64,000 nt of DNA from Rhodococcus rhodochrous (GTDB taxonomy: Bacteria; Actinomycetota; Actinomycetes; Mycobacteriales; Mycobacteriaceae), in assembly GCF_014854695.1 (NCBI RefSeq), contig NZ_CP027557.1:4340001-4404000 (forward strand), written 5' to 3'. Shown one piece after another: positions 29,841 through 64,000 of the stretch. The stretch's first letter is position 1. Each line of letters starts with the position of its first letter. Position numbers and translations under genes: made by a program. Under the pieces are notes generated by a model. The model was not told where the DNA came from. It searched no databases and saw only the letters and a program-made list of their open reading frames with translations.

Positions 29841-31394
29841 TCAGCGATAGGACGCCCGCAGCGTCTTCTTGTCGAGCTTGCCCAGCGGCGTCAGCGGCAG
29901 CGCGTCGAGGAAGTCGACCGACTTGGGGGCGTGCACCGAGCCCTTTGCGGCACGCACCTTCTCGATCAGTTCTTCGGCCGGCACCGACTGGCCCTCACGC
30001 AGCACGACGCATGCCTTGACGGCCTCACCCCACTTGGTGTCCGGCACCCCGACGACGGCCACGGACGCGACCGCGGGATGCGAGGAGATGACGTCCTCGA
30101 TCTCGCGGGGGAAGACGTTGAAGCCGCCGGTGACGATCATGTCCTTCTTACGATCGACGATCGTCATGAAGCCGTTCTTGTCGGCACGCGCGACGTCGCC
30201 GGTGTGCAGCCATCCGCCGCGCAGCGCCTCGGCGGTCTCCTCCGGCTTGTTCAGATAGCCCTTCATCACGAGCGGGCCGCGCACACAGATCTCGCCGAGT
30301 TCACCCTGCGGCACCTCGTTCAAGTCGTCGTCGAGCAGGCGGACGTCGAGCCACGGCACGGGGCGCCCGCACGACGCGAGGCGGCTCGGATCGTCGGGGA
30401 GGTGTTCCTCCTTGCGCAGCACCGAGATGGTCATGCCGCATTCGGACTGACCGTAGAACTGGAAGAAGACCGGACCGAGCCGCTCGATTCCTTCGCGTAG
30501 GCGGGACGGCGACATGGCCGACGCGCCGTAGAACAGGGTCTCGAGGCTCGACAGGTCGCGGCCGTCGAAATCGGGATGGTCGAGCAGCATGTAGATCATC
30601 GTCGGCACGAGCATGGTCGCGTTGATGCGGTGCTTCTCGATCGTTTCGAGCACGAGCGCGGGATCGAAATGGGGCAGCACGTAGAGGCATCCGCCGCGCA
30701 GGAGCGTGGGGACGAAGAACGCCGCCCCGGCGTGCGAGAGCGGGGTGCACACGAGGAAGCGTGGCTGCTCGGGCCACTGCCACTCGGCCATCTGGATCTG
30801 GTTCAGGGCCGCTCCCGATCGGAACGAGCCCATGACACCCTTCGGTTTCCCGGTGGTGCCGCCGGTGTAGACGATGGATGAGGTGTCCTCGATGTCGACA
30901 GGTGCGGACACGAGCCGCTGCTCGGTGAACTGCTCGGACAGGGCGAGGATGTCGGTACCCACCGAGGACGGGCCGAGGGAGAACAGGTTCTTCAGGGTCG
31001 GTACCTGCTCGCGCAGCTCCGCGGCGCGTTCCTCGAAGTGCCGGGGATCGAAGATCAAGGTCTCGATCTCGGCGTCGGTCGAGATGTACTGGTGGTCGGA
31101 GAGCGAGCCCATCGGGTTCAGGGCCGTGTTGCGGCAGCCGGCGACCATCGTGGCACCCATCGAGATGAGTACCTCGGGCCGGTTCTTGGACAGCATCGCC
31201 ACCGCCGATCCCTGCCCGACCCCGACGGACGCGAGCGCCTGCTGGAACCGGCTGATGGCGGCGCGCATCTCGGCTCCGGTGAGGACGACGTCACCGAGGT
31301 GCAGGGCGGGCCGGTCGGCGCTGCGGTCGAGCGCGGTGATGAGGAGATCGGGCGTGAATGCGGGGCGGTAGAGGTCGGCGTACTCCTCGGGCAT
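29841..31394 (-). CDS. Acyl-CoA ligase (FadD-like, ANL superfamily)
   Basis: 517-residue AMP-forming ligase that would activate a carboxylic acid to its CoA thioester. Core motifs: P-loop-like YTGGTTGKPKGV, FYGQSECGMT (A5), GGWLHTGDVA (A7), DRKKDMIVTGGFNVFPREIE (A8) and the catalytic Lys in PLGKLDKKTL. ATG at 31394 with GGAAGGAC upstream. The KstR-type motif in its promoter region and position beside kstD suggest a steroid-derived acid (side chain or ring fragment) as substrate, but ordinary fatty or aromatic acids cannot be excluded. Confidence 0.85.
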   Translation of the reverse strand: MPEEYADLYRPAFTPDLLITALDRSADRPALHLGDVVLTGAEMRAAISRFQQALASVGVGQGSAVAMLSKNRPEVLISMGATMVAGCRNTALNPMGSLSDHQYISTDAEIETLIFDPRHFEERAAELREQVPTLKNLFSLGPSSVGTDILALSEQFTEQRLVSAPVDIEDTSSIVYTGGTTGKPKGVMGSFRSGAALNQIQMAEWQWPEQPRFLVCTPLSHAGAAFFVPTLLRGGCLYVLPHFDPALVLETIEKHRINATMLVPTMIYMLLDHPDFDGRDLSSLETLFYGASAMSPSRLREGIERLGPVFFQFYGQSECGMTISVLRKEEHLPDDPSRLASCGRPVPWLDVRLLDDDLNEVPQGELGEICVRGPLVMKGYLNKPEETAEALRGGWLHTGDVARADKNGFMTIVDRKKDMIVTGGFNVFPREIEDVISSHPAVASVAVVGVPDTKWGEAVKACVVLREGQSVPAEELIEKVRAAKGSVHAPKSVDFLDALPLTPLGKLDKKTLRASYR

Positions 31395-31508
31395 GGTCGT
31401 CCTTCCGGTGTGCTGTGACGGTCCGTTGTGTGACGTCACCGGTCGGCGTTCTCCGCTGTGGTGACCATCACCTGCCGTTCGTCACGATAACCGCTCGAAG
31501 CCAAAAAC

Positions 31509-31591: not shown

Positions 31592-32383
31592 ATGCAGTCG
31601 GCCACGCCGTCACCGAGCGAGACCGAAACGGCAGTCACCGCAACCGTCGTCGAACATCATCGGCTCCGGCACGACCTCGCCGTCGTGCGTCTCGAATGCG
31701 ACGACGCGATCGTCGATTTCCGCCCCGGACAGTACGTCGACGTGGCCGTGCCGCAACGTCCCACGCTGCCGCGTCGCCTCTCCCCCGCGCTGCCACCGTC
31801 GCTGGACGGCAAGCTCGAGTTCCACGTGCGCACGGTCCCGGGTGGCTGGGTGAGCGGCGCGATCGTCGTCGACACCCAACCGGGCGACGTGTGGCAGATC
31901 GGCGCCGCCCGCGGCGGCGACCTCCACATCGACGACACGGGCCGCATCGTCATCATGGTGGCCGGCGGCACGGGCCTCGCGCCGCTGCGGTCGTTGATCC
32001 TCGACACGGCGCGTCGCCCGGATCCGCCCCGCACCTTCCTGTTCACGGGCGCCCGCAACCCGCGCGACCTGTACGCCGCCGACATGCTCATGCTCCTGTC
32101 GGAGGCGCTGCCGTGGCTGACGGTGGTGCCGGTCGTGGAGACCCTCGAGATCCCCGACATCCCCGACCCCTGGTTCGACCGCATCGCCCCGCGCATCGAC
32201 GAGTTCGGACCCGACCCCGACGAACTGCTCGAGGGCAGCGTCGACGAGGTCGTCACGTCCTACGGTGCGTTCGGCGACCACCAGGTGCTCGTGTGCGGCC
32301 CGGCGGCCATGGTGCGCACCACCGCTCAGCGGCTGATCGAGACCGGTACCCCGGTCGAGAACATCCGCTACGACCCGTACTGA
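31592..32383 (+). CDS. Globin-less FAD/NAD(P) reductase, paralogue of type II flavohemoglobin
   Basis: 263-residue ferredoxin-NADP reductase-like protein: FAD motif RRLSPALPP, FHVRTVPGGWVS, NAD motif VMVAGGTGLAPLRS, VLVCGPAAMV and a C-terminal NIRYDPY. Its sequence closely parallels the reductase half of the flavohemoglobin gene at 27195 (shared FHVR...GWVS, GTGLAP, DPRD-type blocks and C-terminus) but it has no globin domain and no [2Fe-2S] cysteines. It may supply electrons to an oxygenase in the island; partner unknown. ATG at 31592 follows GGGGGATC. Confidence 0.75.
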   Translation: MQSATPSPSETETAVTATVVEHHRLRHDLAVVRLECDDAIVDFRPGQYVDVAVPQRPTLPRRLSPALPPSLDGKLEFHVRTVPGGWVSGAIVVDTQPGDVWQIGAARGGDLHIDDTGRIVIMVAGGTGLAPLRSLILDTARRPDPPRTFLFTGARNPRDLYAADMLMLLSEALPWLTVVPVVETLEIPDIPDPWFDRIAPRIDEFGPDPDELLEGSVDEVVTSYGAFGDHQVLVCGPAAMVRTTAQRLIETGTPVENIRYDPY

Positions 32384-32953: not shown

Positions 32954-34666
32954 TCAGGCGACCGGTGCGTCCGACGATGCTGCGTCGCGTGCCGCGATGT
33001 ACCCGAAGACCAGGCCCTGCCCGATGGTGGCGCCGGCACCGGGATAGCGGTGGCCGAACGCGTTGGCCGCGGTGTTGCCGATGGCGTAGAGACCGGCGAT
33101 GGGGCTGCCGTCCTCGCGGAGGACCCGCGCCCGTTCGTCGGCGCGCACGCCACCGCACGTGCCGAGATCGCTCAGCGTCATCTTCACCGCGTAGAGCGGA
33201 CCGTGCGTCAGGGGTCGCAGGTTCGGGTTCGGCTGGACGGTCGGGTCACCGTAGTAGCGGTCGTAGGCACTGCCGCCACGTCCGAACTCGGAATCCGTTC
33301 CCGCCGCCGCGTCCTCGTTGAACTTGCCGAACGTCGCGGCGAAGGCGTCCACCGGCACGCCCATCGACGCCGCGAGTTCCGCAGCGGTGGTGCCGCGGTG
33401 AGCGATGCCCGCCTTGTACCAGGCCTCCGGGAGCGGCTGGCGCGGGAACACCCCGGCCGCGAAGACGTAACTGTTGCGGTACTTCTGGTCGAAGACGATC
33501 CACATCGACTCGATCGGATCGCCGGCACGCTCGCGTTCGAGCACCAGCCGTCCGAACGACATGTAGTCGGACGACTCGTTCGTGAACCGGCGTCCCGTCT
33601 GGTCGACGATGAACGAGCCGGGCAGCGATCGCTCGGCGAGCATGACCATCGGCGGCTTGCCCGGGCGGGTCGGCGCGACGGCGGGGAACCACCAGGCCTG
33701 GTCCATGAGGGCGAGATCGGCACCGACCTCCTGGGCCGCCTTGATCGCATCGCCGGTGTTGGTCTCCGCCCCGAGGCTCTCGTGGTCGAGCAGACGCTCG
33801 GACTGGAACTTACGGCGCATCTCCATGTCGTGGTCGAACCCGCCGGCGGCGAGCACCACCCCGCGACGCGCGGTCACCGTCACCTCACGTCCGTTCTGCG
33901 CTACGACGGCACCGGTGACACGGTCGCCGTCGGTGAGCAGACGCACCAGCGACGTCTCGGTCCACACCGGCACACCGGCCTTCAGCACACCCGCGAACAG
34001 TCCGGCGGCGATCGCCTGTCCACCGGCGACGTATTCACGCTTGACGGCGAGACCGGCGACACCCTGGGCGAGCCGCTTGAAGATGCGCGGAAAACCCTTG
34101 TGCGGCACGCGCAGCATGAGGTTCATCCACTTGTAGTCGGCACCGGTGGTGGGCATCGGCAGGCTCGCCTCCATGAGGCCGGGACGCAGTCGACCGCGCT
34201 CCTCACCGAGGACCGACAGGTCCAGGGGCAGGCACTCGCAGCTGCGGCCGACCGCCGAACCACCCGCCAGTTCGGGGTGATAGTCGGAGTAGCCCTCTGC
34301 CCAGAACAGCTTCATGGGGGTGGTGCGCTGGAGCATTTCGACGGTGGCGACACCGTTGTCGACGAAGGCCTCGCCCCGCTCGACCGGCGCCGTGCCGTCG
34401 ACGACCGTCCGCACGTAGGTGTGGCCGCGCTCGATGGTGTCGCCGCTTCCCGCCGCGTCGAGTACCGGATTGGCCGGCACCCAGAACGCACCGCCGGAAC
34501 GGGCGGTCGATCCGCCGACGTAGGCCGATTTCTCCACGATGAGGGCGGACAGGCCCGCCTCGTGCGCGGTGAGCGCGGCGGCCATGCCGGTACCGGACCC
34601 GATCACGAGCAGGTCCACGGTCGTGTCGCGGGCTGTGGTCACGGCCGGTACAGGGGTCTTGGCCAT
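32954..34666 (-). CDS. kstD: 3-ketosteroid delta1-dehydrogenase (KstD2-like)
   Basis: FAD enzyme inserting the 1,2 double bond into ring A of 3-ketosteroids. 570 residues. FAD motif LLVIGSGTGMAAALTAHEAG, the KstD signature VEKSAYVGGSTARSGGAFW, YSDYHPELAGG, the substrate-domain WWFPAVAP, SAYDRYYGDP, and the C-terminal TCGGVRADER...GLYAIGNTAANAFG...YPGAGATIGQG. The match to the KstD2 group is strong over the full length as far as I can recall it. ATG at 34666 has GGAGACAG upstream. Preceded by a 119-base gap that should hold a promoter. Confidence 0.9.
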   Translation of the reverse strand: MAKTPVPAVTTARDTTVDLLVIGSGTGMAAALTAHEAGLSALIVEKSAYVGGSTARSGGAFWVPANPVLDAAGSGDTIERGHTYVRTVVDGTAPVERGEAFVDNGVATVEMLQRTTPMKLFWAEGYSDYHPELAGGSAVGRSCECLPLDLSVLGEERGRLRPGLMEASLPMPTTGADYKWMNLMLRVPHKGFPRIFKRLAQGVAGLAVKREYVAGGQAIAAGLFAGVLKAGVPVWTETSLVRLLTDGDRVTGAVVAQNGREVTVTARRGVVLAAGGFDHDMEMRRKFQSERLLDHESLGAETNTGDAIKAAQEVGADLALMDQAWWFPAVAPTRPGKPPMVMLAERSLPGSFIVDQTGRRFTNESSDYMSFGRLVLERERAGDPIESMWIVFDQKYRNSYVFAAGVFPRQPLPEAWYKAGIAHRGTTAAELAASMGVPVDAFAATFGKFNEDAAAGTDSEFGRGGSAYDRYYGDPTVQPNPNLRPLTHGPLYAVKMTLSDLGTCGGVRADERARVLREDGSPIAGLYAIGNTAANAFGHRYPGAGATIGQGLVFGYIAARDAASSDAPVA

Positions 34667-34729
34667 CGACTGTCTCCTTCACATCGTTGTCTTCCGGACG
34701 GTATGGCAGCTCCGGGAGTCGTAACATGC

Positions 34730-34743
34730 GTGATCCCGATCAC
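34730..34743. promoter_or_regulatory. CRP-like palindrome upstream of kstD
   Basis: GTGA-TCCCGA-TCAC, a perfect match to the inner half-sites of the GTGA-N6-TCAC pattern, 64-77 bases upstream of the kstD start. It could equally be an operator of an unidentified dimeric regulator. Confidence 0.4.
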
Positions 34744-34785
34744 CGGGAGAACGCGAGGACGGACGATCGGTCTCCGGCCGTCCGA

Positions 34786-35709
34786 TCATTCCGGCGAGGC
34801 GAAGACACCGGAGAGGTAGGCGACGATCTCGTGGAACAACTCCTCCGCAGCAGGTAGCACGGCTGTCATGGTCGCGAAACCGTGCATCATCCCGTCGTAC
34901 CGCCGTAGTTCGACCGGCACACCGGATTCCTGCATACGCCGCGCGTACTCCTCGGTGCCGTCGCGCGTGGGGTCCACTTCGGCGGTGGCGACGAAGGCGG
35001 GCGGCAGGCCGACCAGGTCGCCGGCGAGGCCCGGAGATGCCTGCACAGAACGCCGGTCGGTGGGATCCGGCACGTACATGTCCCAGAACCAGTGACAATC
35101 CTCCGGGGACAGCAGTGCCGTGGCGTACTCGGGATTGGTCACCTCCATCACCGCAGTCCCGTACAGGGAGATCTGCGCGAGCGGACATGGAAGGCCGGTC
35201 TCGTGGAGTTGCTGGGCCAACGCGAAGGTCAGAGTGCCACCGGCACTCTCGCCTGCGATCACTGCTCGCGTCACGTCGACGGACCGAAGTTCATCGGGCG
35301 CAGAGGTGATCCATTCCCAAACACTCCGACAATCGTCGAGCGCCGCCGGACAGGGGTGTTCCGGCGCCAGCCGGTAGTCCACGGAGACGATGACGCACCG
35401 GGATGCGTTGCTCAGCTTCCGCAGGTACTCCTCGTTCTGATCGAGATTTCCGACGGCGAATCCTCCACTGTGCATCCACTGCACCACCGGCAACCCCGGG
35501 TCGTCGGACGGCCGGTAGATGCGCACGGGAACGCCACCACCGGCAGAGGGAACGACGCTGTCCTGTCGATGATGAATGGGTGTCGTTGCCGGAATCGCGT
35601 GTGCAGCGAGAGCGGCACGCAGATCCTCCACAGGCGTCTCGTGCATGGGTCTTGCCATGCGTGTTGCAGATGCATCGACCACCCGCTGTGCTTCCGGTGA
35701 GAGCGGCAT
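34786..35709 (-). CDS. Alpha/beta hydrolase, hormone-sensitive-lipase family esterase
   Basis: 307 residues. Oxyanion motif MHSGGFAVG (HGGG variant), nucleophile GESAGG, acid in TAEVDPTRD and His in MMHGFA, the full HSL-family triad. It would hydrolyse a carboxylic ester or lactone. With two Baeyer-Villiger monooxygenases in the same island, the obvious proposal is hydrolysis of the ester or lactone they make (for instance a 17-acetate). That is inference. ATG at 35709. It lies downstream of the NTF2-like/SDR genes. Confidence 0.82.
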   Translation of the reverse strand: MPLSPEAQRVVDASATRMARPMHETPVEDLRAALAAHAIPATTPIHHRQDSVVPSAGGGVPVRIYRPSDDPGLPVVQWMHSGGFAVGNLDQNEEYLRKLSNASRCVIVSVDYRLAPEHPCPAALDDCRSVWEWITSAPDELRSVDVTRAVIAGESAGGTLTFALAQQLHETGLPCPLAQISLYGTAVMEVTNPEYATALLSPEDCHWFWDMYVPDPTDRRSVQASPGLAGDLVGLPPAFVATAEVDPTRDGTEEYARRMQESGVPVELRRYDGMMHGFATMTAVLPAAEELFHEIVAYLSGVFASPE

Positions 35710-35776
35710 ATGTTCTCGTTTCGTCGACGTCTCGTACGGGCCGGGACGGTTCCGATCGCGGCGGCGGCCGTTCGGA

Positions 35777-36262
35777 TCAGAGAACTCGCGCGGACACCTC
35801 TGCGAAGTGATCGGCGTATCTCACCGAGTCCTGGGTATCGAGGACGACGTGGACAGCACTGAAGACCGGTCCCGCTTCGGTGGCCCGGATGCTGCCGCGC
35901 ACGATGCCACTCGATACGTTGAACGGCCTACCGTCGACGATCTTGGTGACGAAGATGTAGGACGAGAACTCGACCTCTCCGTCCGCGACGCCGGTGACGA
36001 ACACATTGGTGCCGTTGTGACGCAGCGGATAAGGACTGTTGCGCCGGTGGTCGTCCTTCCATGCCATCACATTGGCGGCGCCACGCACGTCGACGCGGAT
36101 GAAGTCCTCGTAGTCGGTCTCACCCGTGTCGCTCGCGCAACTGAAGGCGATGTCGTCGGCCATGAGCGCCCGAAGTTCGATGGGATTCCATTCGTCGTAA
36201 TGGAACCACCAGGCCGCGACGAGGGCGCTGACGGTGCCCGGATCCACGGTCGACTCGTTCAT
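35777..36262 (-). CDS. NTF2-like/SnoaL-fold protein
   Basis: 161 residues of the NTF2-like superfamily, which includes ketosteroid isomerase, SnoaL cyclases and small dioxygenase subunits. Seen: VSALVAAWWFHYDEWNPIELRALMADDIAFSC at the N-terminus, VDVRGAANVMAWKDDH, and the beta-strand VFSAVHVVLDTQD. An Asp/His-lined pocket is likely but no clear KSI Tyr/Asp pair can be assigned. In a steroid cluster a double-bond isomerase or hydratase-like role is plausible. ATG at 36262 with CAGGAGAG. Confidence 0.65.
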   Translation of the reverse strand: MNESTVDPGTVSALVAAWWFHYDEWNPIELRALMADDIAFSCASDTGETDYEDFIRVDVRGAANVMAWKDDHRRNSPYPLRHNGTNVFVTGVADGEVEFSSYIFVTKIVDGRPFNVSSGIVRGSIRATEAGPVFSAVHVVLDTQDSVRYADHFAEVSARVL

Positions 36263-36312
36263 GGAACTCTCCTGGAAGTCGGGACGGATGGTCGGGGAAT
36301 CCGGAAGCTCTG

Positions 36313-37197
36313 TCACCGGTCGCGTCCGGCGGCGATACCCATTCGTGTGAGCATCGCCTGTGGGTCGGCCGGCGGCGCGAGATCGAGAAGCTGGTGCGCA
36401 CGCCGATGTACTGCGGCGATGCACAGGTCGTCATCCGAGTGGATCCAGAACTCGCCGCGCGCGATCTGCTCGACCATGTGCTCGGCAGCGACGAGCGGAT
36501 CGAGCCCTTTCTCGACGTTGTCGCGTTGCATGGCCGCGAACACCGCGTTCGCCGTCGGGTTGTCCGTGGGTGCCTCACGCTGCGCCGACAGGAAGATCTC
36601 GCTCCGGATCGAATGCGGGATCACGGCACTCACCTGGATCGGTGCACCGACGATGGCCAGGTCCTGGTGCAGACACTCCGTCATCGCGAGCACCGCATGC
36701 TTGCTCACGATGTACGGGGATTGCACCGCAACGGCATTCAGTCCACCGACCGACGACAGATTGGCGATGCACGACGGAGTTCCCGCTGCGATCATCCGCG
36801 GGACGAACGATCGCAAGCAATAGAAGACACCATCGACGTTGATCTGCATCAGCCGTTGCCACCGCTCGCGGTCGATCTCCCACAGCAGGCCGGCCGACTC
36901 GACGCCGGCATTGTTCACCAGGAGTTCGACGCTGCCGTGACGCTCGAAGACCTCGCTCGCCATCGTCTCGACAGCGTCGGGGTCGGCGACGTCGACGGCA
37001 TACGGTTCCGCCTTGCCCCCTGCGGCGACGATCTCGTCGACGACCTTCGCCGCTCGACCGCCGTCGATATCCGAGACGACGACCGTCATTCCCAGTGACG
37101 AGAGATGCCGTACCAGACCTTCACCGATACCGGCGGCGGCGCCGGTCACCACGGCCACGCCCCGGGAGAACCGTTCCCGCGCACTGCTCGTCTGCAT
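36313..37197 (-). CDS. SDR-family oxidoreductase
   Basis: 294-residue classical SDR: TGAAAGIGEGL, Asp after beta-2 (VVSDIDGG, NAD-type), NNAG, Ser in NLSSVGG, and YIVSK. The long C-terminal tail (DDDLCIAAVHRRAHQLLDL) is typical of larger actinobacterial SDRs annotated as hydroxysteroid or cyclic-alcohol dehydrogenases. ATG at 37197 has GAGGG upstream; an alternative GTG at 37203 overlaps the previous stop (GTGA). Substrate inferred to be an island intermediate. Confidence 0.82.
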   Translation of the reverse strand: MQTSSARERFSRGVAVVTGAAAGIGEGLVRHLSSLGMTVVVSDIDGGRAAKVVDEIVAAGGKAEPYAVDVADPDAVETMASEVFERHGSVELLVNNAGVESAGLLWEIDRERWQRLMQINVDGVFYCLRSFVPRMIAAGTPSCIANLSSVGGLNAVAVQSPYIVSKHAVLAMTECLHQDLAIVGAPIQVSAVIPHSIRSEIFLSAQREAPTDNPTANAVFAAMQRDNVEKGLDPLVAAEHMVEQIARGEFWIHSDDDLCIAAVHRRAHQLLDLAPPADPQAMLTRMGIAAGRDR

Positions 37198-37199
37198 GC

Positions 37200-38093
37200 T
37201 CACGCCCTCAGTCCGTCGTCGGCGATGTTGGGATTGCACCAGGCAGGCGGCTCGCGGCGAGGCAGTTCGTCCTTGCCGTCGAGGCTCTTCACCGGGATCC
37301 CCTGAGACCACGGGAAATGCAGACTGAAGCCCACCAGACCGGTACGTTCGGCGGCGGGCAAGGTGCACATCTCCAGGACGGTCTGCGCCAGGTATTCCGG
37401 TGGTTCCGTCTCGTACCCCTCGGGCAGCAGTGCGGCAGCGCCCGGGGTCATGATCGCCGTGGACGGCCCGACCGCATTGACGGCGATGTTGTCGTCGACG
37501 AGTTCCGCGGCGAGGCCTTGGGTGAACCGGTGCAGAGCAGCTTTCGCCGACGCATAGATCACGTCACCGGAGGTCTTGTTGTACTCGCGGAACGGGCGGA
37601 TCGGGCTCACACCGGTGGACGAGCCGATGTTGACGATCCACCCCGCACCGGACTTGCGCATGTGAGGGATGGCGGCCTGCGAGAGGAGGAAGGGAGCCTT
37701 CAGGTAGTGCTCCAGAGTCCTGTCGAACGTTTCTTCGCTCATCTTCTCGATCGACGAGTAATCGGCGAATCCCGCATTGTTGACCAGGATGTCGAGCCCT
37801 CCGACGGCGTCCGCCGCTGCGTCGATCAGTCCCGCGCGCTGGTCGCGGTCCTCGAGATCCGCCGCGATCGGCACTGCGCGACCACCGGCCTGTTCGATCA
37901 GCTGCACCGTCTCTTCCAGAGTGCCCTCGAGTACGTGCTCCTGCCCGTCCCGGAGCGATCGGGACGGGGACATGGAACGAGCCGTGACCACTACGGTGGC
38001 ACCTTCGGATGCGAGACGTCGCGCGATCGCCCGGCCGATCCCCCGGCTGCTTCCGGTCACGAGAGCGGTACGTCCGGTCAGTCGTTGTGTCAT
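37200..38093 (-). CDS. SDR-family oxidoreductase
   Basis: 297 residues. VTGSSRGIGRAIA with TARS after beta-2 (NADP-type), NNAGFADYS, Ser in NIGSSTGVSP, catalytic YASAK. The insertion after beta-2 (MSPSRSLRDGQEHVLEGTLEE) and the C-terminal HFPWSQGIPVKSLDG extension mark a subgroup seen beside steroid and terpenoid genes. ATG at 38093. Near-overlap with the next SDR implies coupled translation. Confidence 0.82.
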   Translation of the reverse strand: MTQRLTGRTALVTGSSRGIGRAIARRLASEGATVVVTARSMSPSRSLRDGQEHVLEGTLEETVQLIEQAGGRAVPIAADLEDRDQRAGLIDAAADAVGGLDILVNNAGFADYSSIEKMSEETFDRTLEHYLKAPFLLSQAAIPHMRKSGAGWIVNIGSSTGVSPIRPFREYNKTSGDVIYASAKAALHRFTQGLAAELVDDNIAVNAVGPSTAIMTPGAAALLPEGYETEPPEYLAQTVLEMCTLPAAERTGLVGFSLHFPWSQGIPVKSLDGKDELPRREPPAWCNPNIADDGLRA

Positions 38094-38211
38094 GTCGGTT
38101 CCTGCTGCCTGTTCGTCTGTGTGCTCGGACTTCTCGTCGAACCACTCCGAAGCTATGCCGCAGCCCGTACGGGCGGACCGTTCCCTCCCGTTGTGCGGGA
38201 GGTCACTCCGA

Positions 38212-39060
38212 CTACTTCCCCGATCTGCGGAACCGGAGCAGATAGGACGGAAGCCCGCGAATCGGAACCGACCGGGGCCAGTCGTCGGCACGGAAGTACG
38301 CGTCGGAACCACCATCGACGAACACCACGCTGCCGCACAGGAAATCCGCAGCGTCCGACAGCATGAAGACCGCCCATGCAGCAAGCTGTCCGGCATCACC
38401 GAAGCCACCGACCGGTACGGGGAACGAGCGGATCGCCTTCGCTTCGGAAGGAGTGGACAACTGCTTCTCCAGCAGCGGTGTCATGATCGCTCCCGGCGCC
38501 AGAGCGTTCAGCCGGATACCGGCACCCGCCCACTCCGGCTGCACGGCGGTGCGGCGAACCCATCTGCTGACGGCGATCTTCGACGCCGCGTAGATGATTG
38601 CAGGCGCGACCTTGCCGAACAGCCGGACCGATCGCACCGCCTTGTCCGCGTCCCCTCGCAGAAAAGCCTTGACCGTCCGACCCGGTACAGCGGGCGTGGT
38701 GGTCGTCGAATTGCTCGAGAACACAACCACCCTGGCGTTGCCCGCTGCTTCGAGGGCCGCACGCCAACCCATCAGGAGGTCGACGACCCCGAAGTAGTTG
38801 ACCTCCGCGATGAGCCGGGGGCGTTCCGGGCCGGGCGCCGGCCCGAGACCCGCAGCGAGCACGGCGCCGTCCAGCCGGCCCTCGGCGGCCTCGAGCACCT
38901 TCTCGACGGCGCCCTTCCTGCCCTGCGGTGTCGACAGGTCCGCGACAACCTCCGCCTCTCCGATATCGACACCGATGACGGTGTGCCCGGCGGCGCGAAG
39001 TTGTTCTGCGACGGCGCGCCCCATGCCCGATGCAGATCCTGTCACCACATAGACGCCCAC
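38212..39060 (-). CDS. 3alpha-hydroxysteroid dehydrogenase/carbonyl reductase-like SDR
   Basis: 282 residues. Strong likeness to Comamonas 3alpha-HSD/carbonyl reductase: AGHTVIGVDIGEAEVVADLSTPQGR, DGAVLAAGLGP (replacing the usual NNAG), VNYFGV, catalytic YAASK, APGAIMTPLL and VFVDGG. This group oxidises or reduces the 3-hydroxyl of 5-reduced steroids. GTG at 39060 has GAAGGAGAC upstream, better than a GTG at 39084. First gene of the minus-strand SDR/hydrolase run, divergent from a TetR gene. Confidence 0.85.
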   Translation of the reverse strand: MGVYVVTGSASGMGRAVAEQLRAAGHTVIGVDIGEAEVVADLSTPQGRKGAVEKVLEAAEGRLDGAVLAAGLGPAPGPERPRLIAEVNYFGVVDLLMGWRAALEAAGNARVVVFSSNSTTTTPAVPGRTVKAFLRGDADKAVRSVRLFGKVAPAIIYAASKIAVSRWVRRTAVQPEWAGAGIRLNALAPGAIMTPLLEKQLSTPSEAKAIRSFPVPVGGFGDAGQLAAWAVFMLSDAADFLCGSVVFVDGGSDAYFRADDWPRSVPIRGLPSYLLRFRRSGK

Positions 39061-55144: not shown

Positions 55145-55823
55145 CGACGTCACCGAGCCCGGTCCCCCGGCAACCGTTCGCGGCGCCGACTGGGTCGCCA
55201 CCGAGATCGAGCGGATGATCGTCACCGGTGATCTGCTCCCCGGCCAACCGGTCCGTCAGGAGCAGATGGCGGAACGACTAGGAGTCAGCCGGCTCCCGAT
55301 CCGGGAAGGACTACGCCAACTCGCCTCGCAGGGGCTCATCGAACATCGCCGCAACGCCGGGTACACCGTCGTCCGGCTCGAGCAGTCCGAGTTCGACCAG
55401 ATCTACCTGATGCGCGATGCCCTCGAACGGGAGGTTCTTGCCTCCCTCCCCGCCCTGGATGCCGACGCGCTCGCCGAGGTCCGCAGGCTGGGCGAGCGCG
55501 TCGCCGAGGCGGCAGAACGTGGAGACCTGCTGGAGATGCGCCTGGCGAACCAGGACTTCCACTTCGCCATGTTCGACCGCTCGCCGCTCGGTCTGGTCGT
55601 CTCGGAGATCCGCCGATTGTGGCGACTCGCGATGCCGTATCACGCGGCGTATCTCTTCGATGCCGAAGTGCGCCGACGTGTGATCGCGGAACACGATGCG
55701 ATGATCGACGCGCTCGCCGACCACGACAACGAGCGTCTGATCGGCCTGATGAACGAGCATCGCCGCGGCGGTGAAGCCGGCACGAGCATGCTTCTGCGGA
55801 ACACCGCTCGCGGAGGTTCGTGA
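55116..55823 (+). CDS. GntR-family (FCD-type) transcriptional regulator
   Basis: 235 residues. N-terminal GntR winged helix (ADWVATEIERMIVTGDLLPGQPVRQEQMAERLGVSRLPIREGLRQLASQGLIEH), then an all-helical FCD ligand domain with the metal-site pattern (MRDALEREVLASL, HFAMFDRSP, EHDAMIDALADHD). GTG at 55116 has AGGAG nine bases upstream and overlaps the CoA-transferase end. Predicted repressor of this operon and of the divergent SDR-VOC pair via the palindrome at 50681. Confidence 0.85.
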   Translation: MSPRAMRTGDDVTEPGPPATVRGADWVATEIERMIVTGDLLPGQPVRQEQMAERLGVSRLPIREGLRQLASQGLIEHRRNAGYTVVRLEQSEFDQIYLMRDALEREVLASLPALDADALAEVRRLGERVAEAAERGDLLEMRLANQDFHFAMFDRSPLGLVVSEIRRLWRLAMPYHAAYLFDAEVRRRVIAEHDAMIDALADHDNERLIGLMNEHRRGGEAGTSMLLRNTARGGS

Positions 55824-55887: not shown

Positions 55888-57168
55888 TCATGCCGTTCGA
55901 ACGGCCCCCAACAGCTTCTTCAACGGAACCGTCTCGTCCGAGAGCAGTTCCCGGGACGGCCGGTGCCCACGTGCGAGCGCGGACCGCAGTGCGACGAAGT
56001 CGGCGGGCGCGTTGACGCATTCGGCGGCGAGCAGGCGGTCGTCCTCGAAATAGAGTGCGACGCGGCGCCGAGGCTTGCTCGGATCGGTACGGACCAGCAC
56101 CTCCGTGTGCCCGCCGATCATTCCGGCGATCTGCAGTTTCCACGGCCCCTGGTCGGACCAGAACCACGGCACGGGCCGTTCGACTGCCTCACTTCCGAGC
56201 AACGTCGCAGCTGCCACGTTCGCCTGCTCGGTGGCGTTGTCGACGGATTCGAGACGTACCCGGGTTCCCTCACCCGTCGTCTGCACGGTGCAATCACCGA
56301 TGGCGAGGATTCTCCCGTCCGAGGTCACACAACGCTCGTCGACCAGGACGCCACGATCGCAGGCGAGGCCGAGTTGTTCTGCGAGTTCGGTGCGCGGTTC
56401 CGCACCGACCCCTACGAGGACCGTCGCTGCGGCGATCTCGCGACCGTCGTCGAGACGGACCGCACGTACCCGATCACCGTCGAGTGGGATCTCGACGGGT
56501 TTCGCATCGAGGACGACGTCCACGCCCATCTCCCGGTGCGCCGCGAGCAGGAACTCGGCCGTTCCTGCTCCGACAGCACGACCCATCAGCTGCCGGCCCG
56601 CCTCGACGACCGTGACAGCGACACCCAGTCCCCGGAGTGTGGCGGCGACCTCGAGTCCGACGAAACCACCGCCGATGACCACCACCGGTCCGGCAGTGAC
56701 ACGTTCCGCCAGTCGGTGTGCATGGTCGAGTCCACGCAACACCAGGACATCCCGGTGGTCGGAACCGGGAATCGCCAATCGTCGTGCCCGAGCGCCGGTG
56801 GCGAGCACGAGCCGATCGAAGGCGCGCGTCCCGACGGACCCGTCGGAGCGCTCCAGGTGCAGCGTGACGCCGTCGGCGTCACGTTCGACCCTGCGGACGG
56901 TTGTACCCAGCAACACTTCGATCTCGTTGTCCGAGTAGTGATCTGACGCACGTAGCATCAGCCGGTCCGGCGTCGACTCCCCCTTCAGCCATGCCTTCGA
57001 CAAGGGCGGCCTGTGGTAGGGCGGATGCGTCTCGTCGCCGATCAACGTCAGAGGTCCGGTGTACCCGCCGGACCTGAGCCGATCGGCCAGGTGCACCGCC
57101 GCGTGCGAGGCACCGACGACCGCCACACTGCGTGGTGGTGCGCCGGTGCCGGTCGGATCTCCGGTCAT
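55888..57168 (-). CDS. NAD(P)H:ferredoxin reductase (putidaredoxin reductase-like)
   Basis: 426-residue FAD oxidoreductase: VAVVGASHAAVHLADRLR (first dinucleotide fold), PPYHRPPLSKAWL, VVVIGGGFVGLEVAATLRGLG (NADH fold), and the FAD-binding RILAIGDCTVQ. This architecture belongs to P450-type ferredoxin reductases (camA-like). Start ATG at 57168 is one base after the ferredoxin stop; the ATG at 57183 lies inside the ferredoxin. Transfers electrons from NAD(P)H to the ferredoxin next to it for the P450. Confidence 0.88.
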   Translation of the reverse strand: MTGDPTGTGAPPRSVAVVGASHAAVHLADRLRSGGYTGPLTLIGDETHPPYHRPPLSKAWLKGESTPDRLMLRASDHYSDNEIEVLLGTTVRRVERDADGVTLHLERSDGSVGTRAFDRLVLATGARARRLAIPGSDHRDVLVLRGLDHAHRLAERVTAGPVVVIGGGFVGLEVAATLRGLGVAVTVVEAGRQLMGRAVGAGTAEFLLAAHREMGVDVVLDAKPVEIPLDGDRVRAVRLDDGREIAAATVLVGVGAEPRTELAEQLGLACDRGVLVDERCVTSDGRILAIGDCTVQTTGEGTRVRLESVDNATEQANVAAATLLGSEAVERPVPWFWSDQGPWKLQIAGMIGGHTEVLVRTDPSKPRRRVALYFEDDRLLAAECVNAPADFVALRSALARGHRPSRELLSDETVPLKKLLGAVRTA

Positions 57169-57169: not shown

Positions 57170-57490
57170 TCACGCCTGTTCATCGGGGATCGTCACGTGC
57201 AGGTCGACCCCCTCGCGGAGAATCAACTGGCACGACAGTCGTGACGAGTCCTCACGATCACTCGCGGTGCAGTCCAGCATGTCGTCCTCGTCCTCCGAAG
57301 GAGCATCGAAATGATGCCGGTCCTCTTCGGCGAGGTAGACATGACAGGTCGCGCACGACAGCGAACCGCCGCACTGTCCGACGATCCCGGACACACCGTT
57401 GCGGACGGCTGTCGACATCACGGAATCGCCGGGCACACCGTCGATCACGCGTTCCGTCCCGTCCGGTTGGACATAGAACACCTTGGGCAT
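57170..57490 (-). CDS. [2Fe-2S] ferredoxin, putidaredoxin type
   Basis: 106 residues. Cluster ligands C-x5-C-x2-C in [15 protein letters not shown] and a fourth Cys in [11 protein letters not shown] at 57490 lies nine bases after the P450 stop. Electron carrier between the adjacent reductase and P450, giving a complete class I P450 system. Confidence 0.92.
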
Positions 57491-58791: not shown

Positions 58792-59697
58792 TCAGGACGA
58801 AGCGGGAACCTCGGCGGGGGCGACGACCTGCGGCGCAGCGTCGGCGGTGATCGCCATGATCTCCTCGAACCGCTCGGCCACCGTGTCGACCGTAAGATCG
58901 GGGTCGTGGATGCCCACCGTGTTGACCAGAGCGAGACGGTTGACGATGCCGCCGGCGACGTTGAACACCTCACCGGTGACGGTGCAGTCCGGGTGGACCA
59001 GGTATGCAGCGACCGGAGCGACATGCTCGGGGCGCAACTGGGTGCGCATGTACTCCATCACCTCGGGCGACAGGGTGTCCGCAGACGCCTCGGCCATCCG
59101 GGTGCCGGCGCCGGGAGCGATGGCGTTGACCTTCACCCCCGAGGCGAGACCTTCGACCGCCAGGTTCCGGGTGAGGCCGAACAGTGCGCCCTTCGATCCG
59201 CCGTAGTGCGACATGTCCGGATTACCGAGCATCGCTTGGGAAATGGTGTTGACCACGCGACCGGCAGGCGACTTCAGCAGGTGCGGCCAGGCCGCACGGC
59301 ACAGCCGGAGCGCACCGAAATAGTGGACGTCGAGATGACGTTGGTACTCCTCGTAGGGAACTTCGTCGAACGGTGCGGTACGCACGATGCCCGCGTTGTT
59401 GATGACGGCGTCGAGCCGGCCGAATTCCGCCAGGGCGATGTCGACGAGGGCGTTGGCGCCTTCCTCCGTCGAGACGTCGGCCGCACATGCCACGGCACGT
59501 CCACCCGCCGCGGTGATCACCGCGGCGACCTCCGCTGCCGGGTCGTCGCCGTCGACGCCGGAGCCGTCGATGGTGGCACCCAGGTCACCGACCACCACTG
59601 CGGCACCACGCGCGGCCAGCAGTTCGGCGTGGGCGCGGCCGATTCCGCGACCTGCTCCGGTGATGACGACCACGCGGTCGTTGAAATCCAATGTCAT
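58792..59697 (-). CDS. SDR, 17beta-hydroxysteroid dehydrogenase type 4-like
   Basis: 301 residues. VVITGAGRGIGRAHAELLAARGAAVVVGDLGA has the Asp-Leu-Gly after beta-2 typical of the SDR domain of peroxisomal multifunctional enzyme (HSD17B4/MFE-2) and of steroid side-chain beta-hydroxyacyl-CoA dehydrogenases. NNAGIVR, Ser in TISQAM, YGGSK and a long C-terminus are present. Forty bases upstream of the P450, transcribed together. Confidence 0.83.
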   Translation of the reverse strand: MTLDFNDRVVVITGAGRGIGRAHAELLAARGAAVVVGDLGATIDGSGVDGDDPAAEVAAVITAAGGRAVACAADVSTEEGANALVDIALAEFGRLDAVINNAGIVRTAPFDEVPYEEYQRHLDVHYFGALRLCRAAWPHLLKSPAGRVVNTISQAMLGNPDMSHYGGSKGALFGLTRNLAVEGLASGVKVNAIAPGAGTRMAEASADTLSPEVMEYMRTQLRPEHVAPVAAYLVHPDCTVTGEVFNVAGGIVNRLALVNTVGIHDPDLTVDTVAERFEEIMAITADAAPQVVAPAEVPASS

Positions 59698-59731: not shown

Positions 59732-60679
59732 TCAGGGACGGGTGTCGCCGCCGCTCACGGAAACGTCTGCTGCCCAGATGGTTCCCAGTGCTTCCCGAGC
59801 GGACTTCTCGAAGTCGAAGACCTCGACACCGACGGTCATGTAGAGCGTGGTGCGGTCGGGGCCACCGAGCAGGCAGGCCGAGGCGACGCCGTTCTCGAGC
59901 GGGACCGGAACGGCGTCCGTCATGCCGTCCTCGGTGAAGCGGGCCACGTAACCGCTGCCGGGCATCGCCGCCCACACGCCGCCCTCGGTGTCGAGTCCGA
60001 TTCCGTCGGGAAGGAACGGGCAGGCGGCGAACGGACGAGGATTGGACAGTGATCCATCGGCGGCGCGGTCGATGACCGTCAGTCTCTGCGCCGTCACCTC
60101 TGCGGTGTAGACCTTCGTTCCGTCCGCGCTGATGGTAATGCCGTTGGCGCACATGAGCGGTCCGACCTCATCGGCCGTGGACACGGTCCCGTCGGGCTCG
60201 ACGACGATGATCGGGGACGCCACCGGCTCGGCACCGGCGAACAGGTCGAATCCGAGCTGGGTGACGTATGCGCGGCCCTCCGCGTCGACGACCATGTCGT
60301 TGATGGGGGCCGGCGCGAGTGCGGAGACATCGGCGAGTACCTCGAGGTCGTCGGGCCCCTTCCCGCCGTGGACGAGGACGAGCTTCTCACGCATGGAGGT
60401 GACGATCAGCCGGCCGTCCGGGAGCCATCCGAAACCGCCGAGGTGGATCGGAACGTCGGTCCCTGCACGACGGCCCGACGCGTCCACGACGACCGTCGCG
60501 TTGCCGTCGGCGTCGAGGGTTTTCAGTGTCGAGGTGTACATGTCGGTGAACCAGAGGGCGCCGTCGTGCCAGCGCGGGCACTCGGGCCACGAGAACCCGC
60601 TCGCGATCTTGCGGGGTTCGACGATGCGCGCCTTCGCCTCTGCGACAGCGGCGGCGGTGTCGGCAACTACGTTGGTCAT
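59732..60679 (-). CDS. SMP-30/gluconolactonase-family hydrolase
   Basis: 315-residue six-bladed beta-propeller: WPECPRWHDGALWFTDM (metal ligand Glu33), PINDMVVDAEGRAYVT and PDGIGLDTEGGVWAAMPGSG supply the Asn and Asp ligands. Family members hydrolyse lactones. A lactone from one of the Baeyer-Villiger enzymes or from ring cleavage would be a suitable substrate. ATG at 60679. Confidence 0.85.
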   Translation of the reverse strand: MTNVVADTAAAVAEAKARIVEPRKIASGFSWPECPRWHDGALWFTDMYTSTLKTLDADGNATVVVDASGRRAGTDVPIHLGGFGWLPDGRLIVTSMREKLVLVHGGKGPDDLEVLADVSALAPAPINDMVVDAEGRAYVTQLGFDLFAGAEPVASPIIVVEPDGTVSTADEVGPLMCANGITISADGTKVYTAEVTAQRLTVIDRAADGSLSNPRPFAACPFLPDGIGLDTEGGVWAAMPGSGYVARFTEDGMTDAVPVPLENGVASACLLGGPDRTTLYMTVGVEVFDFEKSAREALGTIWAADVSVSGGDTRP

Positions 60680-60842: not shown

Positions 60843-61655
60843 TCAGCTTCCTTTCGCGGGCGTGCCGAGCACGCTCTTCATCTGCCCGGCGACGAGATTC
60901 GTCGTCCACCGGGGCACAAGGCGGACGAGCCGATCGAGGATGTTCGCGTCCTGGCCGATGACCACGCGGAAGCTGCCCTTCTCCATTCCGGAGACGATCA
61001 GCTCCGCTGTCCGCTCGGGTGTCGTGGCACGCACCTTGCGACCACCCGCATCGATCATCTTCACGCCCGAGTTGCCGCTGAGATTCGTACTGATGTTGCC
61101 CGGGAAAACGGTCGTGACCACCACGCCGGTATCCGAGAGTTCCTGGTACAGACCCTCGCTGAACTGTTTGACCGCTCCCTTGGAGGCGCCGTAGACCGTC
61201 TGGCCTGCGAACGGGACGAGACCGGCCAGACTGGCGATGTTCACCAGCGAGGCCTCCGGGCGCTGCCGGAGCTCGGGCACGAATGCCAGGCACATGTTGA
61301 CCACGCCCCAGAGATTGACCTGCAGAACGCGTTCGATCTCGCTCCGTTCGAGTTCGAGGACCGGGACGAACCGGTGGATGACGCCGGCAACGTTGACGAG
61401 ACCGTCTATCCGTCCATGTTCGGCGAGGACGGCTGCGGGCAACGCATCCACCGCCACCCGATCCGTGACGTCCACGACGTGCAGCGAGACCTTCGCGTTC
61501 CGGTCACCGGTGAGTGCCTGCGTCTCGCGCAACCACTCCTCTTTCAGATCGACGAGCGCGACCCGGGCTCCCCGTTCGAGCAACGTCAACGCTGTCTGCC
61601 GTCCGATACCGTTTCCGGCTCCCGTGACGACGACGACCTTCCCGTCCAACCGCAT
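60843..61655 (-). CDS. SDR-family oxidoreductase
   Basis: 270 residues. VVVVTGAGNGIGRQTA, VDLKE after beta-2 (NAD-type), NVAG instead of NNAG, Ser in NIASLAGL and YGASK. The C-terminal region (ERTAELIVSGMEKGSFRVVIGQDANILDRLVRLVPRW) matches long-chain alcohol/sterol-type SDRs. ATG at 61655 with AGGGAGAGG upstream; the track's earlier start at 61697 is not supported. Confidence 0.82.
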   Translation of the reverse strand: MRLDGKVVVVTGAGNGIGRQTALTLLERGARVALVDLKEEWLRETQALTGDRNAKVSLHVVDVTDRVAVDALPAAVLAEHGRIDGLVNVAGVIHRFVPVLELERSEIERVLQVNLWGVVNMCLAFVPELRQRPEASLVNIASLAGLVPFAGQTVYGASKGAVKQFSEGLYQELSDTGVVVTTVFPGNISTNLSGNSGVKMIDAGGRKVRATTPERTAELIVSGMEKGSFRVVIGQDANILDRLVRLVPRWTTNLVAGQMKSVLGTPAKGS

Positions 61656-61781: not shown

Positions 61782-62570
61782 TCACGTGTCCGCGGTGGCC
61801 CGGCTCTCCTTGCCGTTGTGCTGCACGGAGCCGGTGTGTTCCACGGAGTCGTTGTGCTGCACGGACCCCAGATAGGCGTGTTCGATCCGGCCGGGATCGG
61901 CAGCGAGCGATGCCGCGTCCTCCGACAGCACCACCGACCCGTGCACCAGTACGGCGGCACGGTCGGCGACATCGAGCGCAAGGCGCACATGCTGTTCGAC
62001 GAGGAGCACGGACATCTCCCGCTCCTCCACCAACCGCCGTAGCACCGAAAGGATCTCGTCGACGATCACGGGGGCCAGGCCCATACTCAGTTCGTCGATC
62101 AGCAGAACCTTGGGCCGCTGGAGGATCGCCCGGGCGATCGCCAGCATCTGCTGCTCGCCACCCGACAGGCGACCCGCGGCGACACGGAGCCGCTTCTCCA
62201 ATGCGGGAAAGTATTCGAGCATCTCGTCGACGGCGCCGGAACGGCGACGGCGATCGTGTACCGCGAGCCGGACATTGTCGGTCGTGCTCAGTTCTCGGAA
62301 GAGTGCCCGGTCGTCGGGGACGAGGACCATTCCCGAACGCACGGCATCACGCGGCCGGCCCGGAACCACATCGAGTCCGTCCACGACCACGTCGCCACCG
62401 AACCGGGGTAGCAACCCGGCGAGGGAGAGCAAGAGCGTGGTCTTGCCGGCTCCGTTCGGTCCGAGCAGGCAGGTGATCGTTCCCTTCTCCACGCGTAGGT
62501 CGACGTCCCGGACGCAGGGACGCTGCGGTAGGTAGCCCGTCGAGAGTTTTCGAATCGTCAGTCCGCTCAC
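61782..62570 (-). CDS. Branched-chain-type ABC transporter ATPase (LivF-like)
   Basis: 262 residues: Walker A GPNGAGKTT, signature LSGGEQQMLAIARA, Walker B VLLIDE, H-loop EQHVRLAL. Second ATPase of a Liv-type importer. GTG at 62570 overlaps the preceding gene's stop by four bases. The C-terminal 28 residues carry a SVQHND/SVEHTG/SVQHN repeat not found in ordinary LivF. Probably imports the island's substrate, such as a steroid acid or CoA-cleavage product. Confidence 0.87.
   Translation of the reverse strand: MSGLTIRKLSTGYLPQRPCVRDVDLRVEKGTITCLLGPNGAGKTTLLLSLAGLLPRFGGDVVVDGLDVVPGRPRDAVRSGMVLVPDDRALFRELSTTDNVRLAVHDRRRRSGAVDEMLEYFPALEKRLRVAAGRLSGGEQQMLAIARAILQRPKVLLIDELSMGLAPVIVDEILSVLRRLVEEREMSVLLVEQHVRLALDVADRAAVLVHGSVVLSEDAASLAADPGRIEHAYLGSVQHNDSVEHTGSVQHNGKESRATADT
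61815..61865 (-). repeat. 36-base tandem repeat in the LivF C-terminus
   Basis: Two exact copies of GTTGTGCTGCACGGA at 61815 and 61851 reflect the 12-residue repeat near the ATPase C-terminus; the sequence between them is a diverged copy. Tandem slippage seems the likely origin. Confidence 0.7.
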
Positions 62571-64000
62571 GAGAGCGCCTCCTGGGGATCGAGGGCCGGT
62601 GCGGCCGCAGATGCGGGAACCGTGTCGTGCCCGGTCTCCGCCGGAGCAGGCGGCAGGCCCAGATACGCGCTGATCACAGCTTCGTCGGCCCGGACTTCCT
62701 CCGGTGTACCGCATGCGATCACCCGCCCCAGATCCAGGACGACGACGCGGTCGCAGATCGTGAGGACGAGTTCCATGTCGTGATCGACGAGCAGGATCGA
62801 CGTACCGGCGTCGCGAGCGGCGCGGAGCCGGTCGCCGAGCCAGCGGCTCTCGGAGCTGTCGAGGCCTGCGGCCGGTTCGTCGAGCAGCGCCACTTTCGGC
62901 GACGAGACCAGCACGCGGGCCACCGACACCAACTGACGCCTGCCTTGGGACAGGGTCGACACCTCGGCATCCGCGACATCCCCGAGACCCACCGTGTCGA
63001 GGACCCTGCGCACCCGCTCCGAAACCGCTACCGCGGAGGACTCGTGTCCTCTCGCCGCACCGACGGTCACGTTCTCGACGACCGACAGGTCGTCGTACAG
63101 TTCGACGTCCTGGAAACTGCGGCCGAGCCCTCTCCTGCTGAGGCGGTAGGGCCGCAGATCGCTGACGTCCTCCCCGTCCAGGACGATGGCACCGGTCGCC
63201 GGAGCGAAGCCGGTGACGGCGTCGATGACGGTGGTCTTTCCCGCACCGTTCGGCCCGATGAGCCCGACGATCTCTCCGGCGCGGACATCGAAGGAGACCC
63301 CGGACACCGCGTGCACCGCACCGTATTTCACATCGAGGTTCTGCACGGACAGGAGCGGGCCACCCGTCTTCGACGCCGGCACCTGCGCGGCCACCGGTTC
63401 GACCTCGCTGGCGTCCGCTGTTCCGTCGAGGGACGTCCTCCGCCTCGACGGCCAGGGGATCCGTGGCAGCTTCCCGGCGATACCGTCCGGATTGACCATG
63501 ATCGTGACGATGAGCAGAATTCCGCTGATCACCGCGTAGTAGTCACCGATGTGCAGGAACCGGTCGACGAGCAGGAACAGCAGTCCGCCGGGCGCAATGA
63601 TCCCGGCCAGCACTGCACCCGTGATCGACGTGATGCCGGCGATGTACATGATCGCGAACAGGGTGATTCCGAGGAACACCGTGAAGGGTTCCGGTGTCGC
63701 CAACGTCTGTTGATACGCCATGAGCGATCCGGCGAGTCCGGCAAGAAAGGCGCCGATGGCGAATGCCGCCAACTTCGTTCGGGGGACGTCGATTCCGGAT
63801 GCCGCGGCAGACCGCTCGTTCGCCCGGACCGCGAGCATGTCGGTCCCCAGACGGCTGCGCCGTAGCCATGCCACCCCGAGCGCCGCTGCGACGAGCACCG
63901 CCAGGCACATCAGGGCGAAGGCGAGTCGTGGATAGCCCTCCCCCGCACCGATCCCCAGATCGAATCCGAACAACCGAGGGCTGTCGACGGGAGCACCTGC
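62567..64000 (-). CDS. Fused LivM-type permease and LivG-type ATPase, 5' end cut by window edge
   Basis: Visible 477 residues, open to the right edge. The N-terminal part has hydrophobic helices and the LivM signature (RLGTDMLAVRANERSAAASGIDVPRTKLAAFAIGAFLAGLAGSLMA, GITSITGAVLAG). A linker rich in S/R/E/P follows, then a complete ATPase: Walker A GPNGAGKTT, LSQGRRQLVSVARVL (signature variant of LSGG), Walker B VALLDEPAAGLDS and H-loop VDHDMEL. The single chain thus joins the LivM permease and LivG ATPase, a known actinobacterial fusion. The partner LivH and binding protein should lie beyond the edge. Confidence 0.88.
   Translation of the reverse strand, partial: AGAPVDSPRLFGFDLGIGAGEGYPRLAFALMCLAVLVAAALGVAWLRRSRLGTDMLAVRANERSAAASGIDVPRTKLAAFAIGAFLAGLAGSLMAYQQTLATPEPFTVFLGITLFAIMYIAGITSITGAVLAGIIAPGGLLFLLVDRFLHIGDYYAVISGILLIVTIMVNPDGIAGKLPRIPWPSRRRTSLDGTADASEVEPVAAQVPASKTGGPLLSVQNLDVKYGAVHAVSGVSFDVRAGEIVGLIGPNGAGKTTVIDAVTGFAPATGAIVLDGEDVSDLRPYRLSRRGLGRSFQDVELYDDLSVVENVTVGAARGHESSAVAVSERVRRVLDTVGLGDVADAEVSTLSQGRRQLVSVARVLVSSPKVALLDEPAAGLDSSESRWLGDRLRAARDAGTSILLVDHDMELVLTICDRVVVLDLGRVIACGTPEEVRADEAVISAYLGLPPAPAETGHDTVPASAAAPALDPQEALS

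Follow-up and report, generated by a model that had tools for sequence, protein, structure and literature searches.

What does the steroid-type gene cluster degrade that occupies the right-hand part of a 64,000-nucleotide stretch of Rhodococcus rhodochrous DNA (positions 4340001-4404000 of the chromosomal contig in a 6.09-Mb genome; hereafter the window)? Gene calls came from a script based on codon usage, and families were assigned by Pfam and NCBIfam scans; feature coordinates are window positions unless given as genome positions. On sequence grounds, the locus is best explained as encoding the breakdown of a pregnane-type 20-ketosteroid or a close relative, with a rough probability of 0.55. 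A pregnane-like substrate is favoured because an STMO-like Baeyer-Villiger monooxygenase (BVMO), 62.7% identical to the progesterone BVMO of PDB entry 4AOS, is encoded within the kshA operon. An earlier prediction for this stretch (the original prediction) had proposed an oxygenated or side-chain-modified steroid, and this gene would favour the pregnane-like option among these. The role of the cluster is directly testable, given its candidate class of substrates, its predicted operator and a second oxidation module that is conserved.

The scans recovered the gene families that the original prediction had listed, namely KstD, KshA, two type I BVMOs, an esterase, an Old Yellow Enzyme (OYE), a cytochrome P450 with ferredoxin (Fdx) and ferredoxin reductase (FdR), an SMP-30 family protein, acyl-CoA enzymes including two acyl-CoA dehydrogenases (ACAD1 and ACAD2) and one class III CoA-transferase, and Liv ATPases. 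The predicted one plus five further short-chain dehydrogenases/reductases (SDRs) were likewise found, all six within 36313-61655. KstD, of the 3-ketosteroid delta1-dehydrogenase family (32954-34666, minus strand), scored 1049.8 bits against NF009479, above the cut-off of 793, and 350 bits against PDB 7P18. KshA (47172-48371, minus strand) scored 284.3 bits against PF19298 (KshA_C) and carries intact CRHMGG..CPFH, which we take to be the Rieske motif, and DMAHFFYVH and FEQD, presumably the two-His-one-carboxylate site; by these domain and motif criteria it is a 3-ketosteroid 9alpha-hydroxylase oxygenase. Co-directional with kshA follow the genes for an HsaA-like monooxygenase (45947-47131; 524.4 bits against PDB 2OR0), an HsaC-like extradiol dioxygenase (45007-45918), the STMO-like BVMO (43355-45010) and a second type I BVMO, termed BVMOa (41358-43355), with successive gaps of 40, 28, -4 and -1 bases. 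Overlaps of 1-4 bases join the hsaC-like, STMO-like and BVMOa genes and a small open reading frame (ORF) behind BVMOa; this conserved ORF (41101-41361) shares 4 bases with the BVMOa gene and has no family match. An IclR-family regulator gene (48589-49359, plus strand; PF01614) diverges from the kshA operon, and the spacer holds an exact CTCCCG-N5-CGGGAG palindrome (48458-48474), a predicted operator.

The STMO-like BVMO scored 760.4 bits against 4AOS and has the type I BVMO fingerprint FAGESYHTGEWP. BVMOa has approximately 145 extra N-terminal residues and carries FRGTVVHTAEWD at residue 302, which we take to be its type I BVMO fingerprint; its best PDB match was cyclohexanone monooxygenase (223 bits). 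To the right of the iclR gene lies a second operon on the plus strand, comprising genes for enoyl-CoA hydratase (ECH, 50723-51535), ACAD1 (after ECH, ending at 52689), ACAD2 (52686-53786), the CoA-transferase (53783-55144) and a GntR regulator (55131-55823), divergent from the minus-strand genes for a FabG-like SDR4 (49840-50598) and a VOC/glyoxalase-fold protein (49442-49843). It is followed by a minus-strand run encoding FdR (55888-57126), Fdx (57170-57490), the P450 (57500-58711), SDR5 (58792-59697; PF00106), the SMP-30 protein (59732-60679), SDR6 (60843-61655; PF00106, 177.6 bits) and the Liv-type ABC ATPases LivF and LivG (61782-63973), which past the window edge is extended by Liv-type permease and periplasmic binding protein genes. 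The SMP-30 protein has an SGL domain (PF08450, 165.7 bits), and E33, N127, N179 and D225, presumably its metal residues, are invariant in 4 aligned sequences and were also aligned to 7PLB; by domain and metal residues it fits an SMP-30/gluconolactonase-type lactonase. Comparison of the P450 with solved relatives gave no clear steroid hint on its substrate. NCBIfam pointed to no SDR substrates, all SDR matches among those listed being under cut-off. The label of 3alpha-HSD-like given to one SDR was not borne out, as no specific match was found; SDR3 (38212-39084, minus strand; PF13561) came closest to the coniferyl-alcohol dehydrogenase subfamily, at 109.1 bits against a cut-off of 242.

Of 591 confirmed stretches with KshA, the best 80 served to assess conservation, the loci reaching up to 10 kb per side. 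In a FastTree phylogeny of 94 rows (101 before identical rows were removed) the window KshA belongs to its own clade of 13 rows with support 100. Among the KshA stretches, its nearest named relatives are those of R. coprophilus and Rhodococcus sp. HM1. KshA was at least 75% identical to the window protein in 9/80 loci; of these nine, eight have orthologues of HsaA, HsaC, STMO, BVMOa, SDR4 and ACAD1, seven of SDR1, SDR2 and the CoA-transferase, and all nine of IclR, and in the ninth locus (L040) the contig ends after KshA. None of the 71 other KshA loci passed the same orthologue cut-offs. Because synteny is conserved (8/9 against 0/71) and genes overlap by 1-4 bases, the grouping is not due to chance, and a chance gathering of catabolic genes was ruled out. 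Relatives at 50% identity or more lie near KshA in 11/71 of the other loci for STMO and in 2/71, both Actinomadura, for BVMOa. The cluster is sparse but real: BVMOa at 85% identity or more occurs in 6/18 genomes of the genus, and at E<=1e-180 in 8/397 genomes of the order and 2/396 of the phylum (own genome included throughout; three candidates scored per genome in the latter two counts).

The FdR-Fdx-P450-SDR5-SMP30 set shares a contig with the conserved block in R. coprophilus, Rhodococcus HM1, N. shimofusensis, two N. flavorosea and genome G030. In N. cerradoensis it lies on a separate contig with CoA-transferase, GntR, TetR, OYE and Liv genes, and the best match to SMP-30 in N. speluncae lies outside the contig that carries its KshA locus. 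In A. rifamycini and Actinomadura CNU-125, P450-SDR5-SMP30-BVMOa-SDR1 adjoins KshA and the stretch read holds no STMO match, and in A. rudentiformis SMP30-SDR5-P450 adjoins KshA without BVMOa. Genome G769 holds FdR-Fdx-P450-SDR5-SMP30-esterase-SDR1-BVMOa-IclR-CoA-transferase-ACAD2-ACAD1-GntR-SDR4 together, and its one KshA on another contig. A KshA_C match was present in 12/13 genomes with BVMOa or the SMP-30 set, or 8/9 after dropping four reached via KshA; the one genome lacking it is G534, where a 51% BVMOa is the sole module gene of the stretch read. These arrangements suggest a grouping of BVMOa with the P450-SDR5-SMP30-acyl-CoA set and a link of this set to organisms that use steroids. 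A second esterase-like match (39%) adjoins STMO in 2/3 Nocardia stretches. Besides the BVMOa orthologue, two Rhodococcus genomes carry an extra gene of BVMOa type (66-67%) with homologues of the esterase and KstD as neighbours (G019:C14:8613-10550 and G024:C20:13203-15182).

The genome contains six PF19298 matches, five of full length; one of the six lies at 4.591 Mb. In line with the original prediction, the window cluster is neither of the sets for cholesterol and cholate, which are located at 0.61 and 0.655 Mb. The KshA at 0.607 Mb sits with KstD, HsaA, HsaD and the genome's only HsaC over the NCBIfam cut-off, and that at 0.655 Mb shares 94.7% identity with KshA1 (4QDF), reported as the cholate enzyme (PMC4064121). 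Cholesterol or cholate cluster identity was accordingly ruled out, the over-cut-off HsaC with KshA, HsaA and HsaD being at 0.607-0.612 Mb and the KshA1 orthologue at 0.655 Mb. The cholesterol-type A/B-ring set (605-612 kb) shares the KstD, KshA, HsaA and HsaC families with the window but differs in having HsaD and an HsaC over cut-off, and none of its genes is matched by the window BVMOs. None of the genome's 39 HsaD-like matches lies at 4.37-4.44 Mb, so that ring-A breakdown would be finished by enzymes encoded elsewhere; a complete cholesterol-type A/B-ring cluster, with HsaD beside HsaA and HsaC, is not present here. Another set resembling ring-degradation genes, at 5213013-5223471, encodes one HsaC-like protein (44%), one HsaD-like protein (44%) and three that are KstD-like (25-38% to the KstD of the window); the genome search with PF19298 gave no KshA_C match there.

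The closest relative within the genome is the partly characterised KshA5/STMO locus (4.426-4.434 Mb), approximately 41 kb from the window cluster and paralogous to it. Its KshA (4.430 Mb) is KshA5, 99.2% identical to PDB 4QDC, and its BVMO (4.426 Mb) is STMO, 97.9% identical to 4AOS; the STMO-like protein of the window was therefore ruled out as orthologue of the known progesterone BVMO, the true orthologue being that at 4.426 Mb. Both loci encode an STMO-type BVMO, KshA, HsaA-like, HsaC-like and IclR proteins (62, 63, 65, 63 and 40% identity between loci, respectively; 62.7% for window KshA against KshA5) with an exact palindrome before kshA, but no orthologue of BVMOa, the P450 or SMP-30 is among the genes compared at 4404-4444 kb. 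The intervening region and this locus (genome positions 4404001-4444000) also contain a Liv permease and binding protein, an MFS transporter, two Abhydrolase_3 esterases, three FAD_binding_2 (KstD-like) proteins, two luciferase-like monooxygenases with a flavin reductase, and DnaK/DnaJ ahead of the STMO/KshA5 genes. The luciferase-like pair with its reductase recalls the progesterone type II BVMO described in the passages available from PMC12239570.

The CTCCCG-N5-CGGGAG motif, at which the IclR protein is predicted to act, was defined by two sites, those of the kshA/iclR spacer (genome position 4388458) and upstream of kshA5 (4429963). The genome has 9 exact copies, of which 5 fall within 4.378-4.430 Mb; the remaining three of these five are at 4378185, before SDR2 (window 38185-38201, 91 bp ahead of the gene), at 4406778, 137 bp ahead of the Liv binding-protein gene, and at 4417601, within the 3' end of a luciferase-like gene and before SnoaL-like, flavin reductase and luciferase-like genes. 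Of the other four copies, one (618741) falls inside a gene call in the cholesterol region, and three (2867536, 3424403 and C4:44161) lie elsewhere. A reversed-pattern control gave 1 match per strand in the genome. With the defining sites excluded, 3/7 copies fall in a 64-kb stretch (binomial P of approximately 4e-5 under even placement), a value that is only a guide, the stretch having been picked after the sites were seen. With up to 2 mismatches allowed there was no signal in the window (14 matches against 13.25 expected), and therefore only exact palindromes carry weight. Before kshA the palindrome is exact in 5/6 Rhodococcus rows (window included) and has 1 mismatch in R. coprophilus; exact copies also lie further upstream, between SDR3 and SDR2, in Rhodococcus HM1 and G024. 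A different palindrome, ATTGGATCCAAT, in the SDR4/ECH spacer (50682-50693) is a weak candidate GntR site, being partially conserved among 11 aligned SDR4/ECH spacers and giving 1 match against 0.53 expected at up to 2 mismatches.

For a 20-ketosteroid, KstD and KshA would open ring B to the 9,10-seco product, the HsaA-like enzyme would hydroxylate and the HsaC-like enzyme cleave ring A, and an HsaD-type hydrolase would be supplied from elsewhere in the genome. The STMO-like enzyme would convert the C20 ketone into a 17-ester, which the Abhydrolase_3 esterase may hydrolyse, freeing the 17-hydroxyl and completing side-chain removal, and an SDR would oxidise the 17-hydroxyl to the 17-ketone. In the second module, the P450 and SDR5 would create a ketone, at a position left unspecified, that BVMOa could convert into a lactone or ester; the SMP-30 protein would hydrolyse this product, and the CoA-transferase, the paired acyl-CoA dehydrogenases, ECH and SDR4 would pass the resulting acid into beta-oxidation. 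More tentatively, it is possible that this module constitutes an oxidative ring-opening branch not described before, in which the ketone made by P450 and SDR allows BVMOa to expand a ring (e.g. D or C) to a lactone, SMP-30 opens it, and the CoA-transferase and paired ACADs lead to beta-oxidation, supplementing or replacing the usual route for the C and D rings. Were a ring opened via a lactone in this way, it would represent a new branch of aerobic steroid breakdown and would provide enzymes for steroid lactones and progestogen removal.

The 20-ketosteroid assignment is supported by the KstD over cut-off, the intact residue motifs, the conserved block and its linked P450 module, and by the exact copies of the palindrome that precede both kshA and kshA5 as well as SDR2 and the Liv binding-protein gene. 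The second esterase-like gene beside STMO in Nocardia, the module beside KshA in two Actinomadura and its occurrence with CoA-transferase and ACADs in G769 also speak for it. Several findings weigh against this assignment. Of the four known ring-degradation enzymes claimed by the original prediction, KstD (by cut-off) and KshA (by domain and motifs) stand, while the HsaA-like (NF045629, 383.3 bits) and HsaC-like (NF045631, 339.7 bits) proteins are homologues rather than certified HsaA and HsaC because both fall under the equivalog cut-off of 450. The STMO-like BVMO forms a 12-row clade (support 100/100, tree of 25 rows) apart from that of 4AOS, and its substrate may thus differ. The palindrome before kshA is degraded (2-3 mismatches) in 3/3 Nocardia, while of 9 rows just two, the window and G030, have it exact within 300 bp before SDR2, and both of these have it with 1 mismatch before KstD. 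The window scan found no exact site before the P450, SMP-30 or SDR4/ECH genes, and IclR control of the P450 module is therefore unsupported. Finally, no KshA, HsaA, HsaC or STMO match was present within the 40 kb read around the G769 module.

That the cluster is a redundant or diverged copy of the KshA5/STMO locus acting on identical substrates, while the P450, SMP-30 and acyl-CoA genes form a separate adjacent pathway, appears doubtful. The paralogy of STMO, KshA, HsaA, HsaC and IclR, the exact palindrome common to both loci and absent before the P450 module, and the separate occurrence of the two modules in G769 and Actinomadura would all agree with it; however, BVMOa lies in the kshA operon, with a 1-base overlap with STMO, yet travels with P450-SDR5-SMP30 where STMO is not seen, and both modules remain linked in Rhodococcus and Nocardia. 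Action of BVMOa and SMP-30 on a side chain (e.g. a lactone or a longer oxygenated one) instead of a ring is judged unlikely, although nothing specific was found against it: the combination of CoA-transferase, paired ACADs and ECH is like that of beta-oxidation sets for side chains, and the additional esterase-like gene of the Nocardia stretches would suit this role as well. A cluster for a non-steroid polycyclic compound, e.g. a terpenoid, is most improbable. It would account for the scores of the HsaA-like and HsaC-like proteins and for the matches of the P450 and BVMOs to terpenoid-pathway NCBIfam models, all of which are far under cut-off, but not readily for the co-occurrence of KshA, an over-cut-off KstD and an STMO-like BVMO, the palindrome common with the KshA5/STMO locus, or the frequency of KshA_C in genomes with BVMOa or the SMP-30 set (12/13, or 8/9).

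Testosterone acetate is the product that STMO of R. rhodochrous forms from progesterone (PMC12239570). Rhodococci carry more than one kshA cluster, and for some of these clusters no function is known (PMC4810484, PMC4064121). A figure legend for R. ruber Chol-4 gives kstD, kshA, a hydroxylase, hsaC, iclR and chnB (cyclohexanone monooxygenase) in sequence, and these genes presumably form one cluster there; the legend passage names no P450 or SMP-30, and the likeness is by legend, not by sequences (PMC6498646). The pdc genes of Caenibius tardaugens share the BVMO-type conversion of progesterone to testosterone acetate but are alphaproteobacterial and comprise a BVMO and a luciferase-like enzyme with two regulators, with no kshA-type operon in the passages available (PMC12239570). 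Among titles and abstract openings of the open-access literature, no description of a P450-SMP-30-BVMO module in a steroid cluster was found. Steroid genes together with a BVMO are thus already published and the general kind is known. The combination that the original prediction called not standard is consequently only partly so: a KshA-HsaA-HsaC-IclR set with a progesterone BVMO lies approximately 41 kb away, STMO relatives near KshA are found in 11/71 other loci, and the R. ruber legend is similar, while the unusual part is the second BVMO with its P450-SDR5-SMP-30-CoA-transferase module (BVMOa relatives in 2/71).

The remaining genes of the cluster lie in its left part. The Abhydrolase_3 esterase (34786-35709, minus strand; PF07859, 208.1 bits; GESAG motif) is probably 307 residues long, its start, at 35526 or 35709, being uncertain. 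A small conserved ORF at 35777-36262 has no clear family, its SnoaL_4 match being weak and under cut-off (E 0.013). SDR1 (36313-37197) and SDR2 (37200-38093), both on the minus strand, match PF00106. A TetR-family regulator gene (39140-39784, plus strand; PF17754/PF00440) precedes that of the OYE (39839-41047, plus strand; PF00724); the regulator is a relative of MftR of the mycofactocin system (113.2 bits against a cut-off of 224.9), and the OYE also matched a mycofactocin-system model below cut-off. An unassigned FAD/NAD reductase is encoded at 31592-32383. The G+C content is 0.664 for the cluster against 0.691 leftward (1-29840), and 0.654 for 34700-52000, which would fit acquisition of the cluster. 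Positions 1-29840 are ordinary-looking chromosome as judged from 6/30 called genes scanned (a ClpB-type AAA protein, a flavohaemoglobin-like protein, GH76, a GalT-like protein, an SDR and one without family), and their gene order matches G030 from gene 12 onward and R. coprophilus from the ClpB gene onward.

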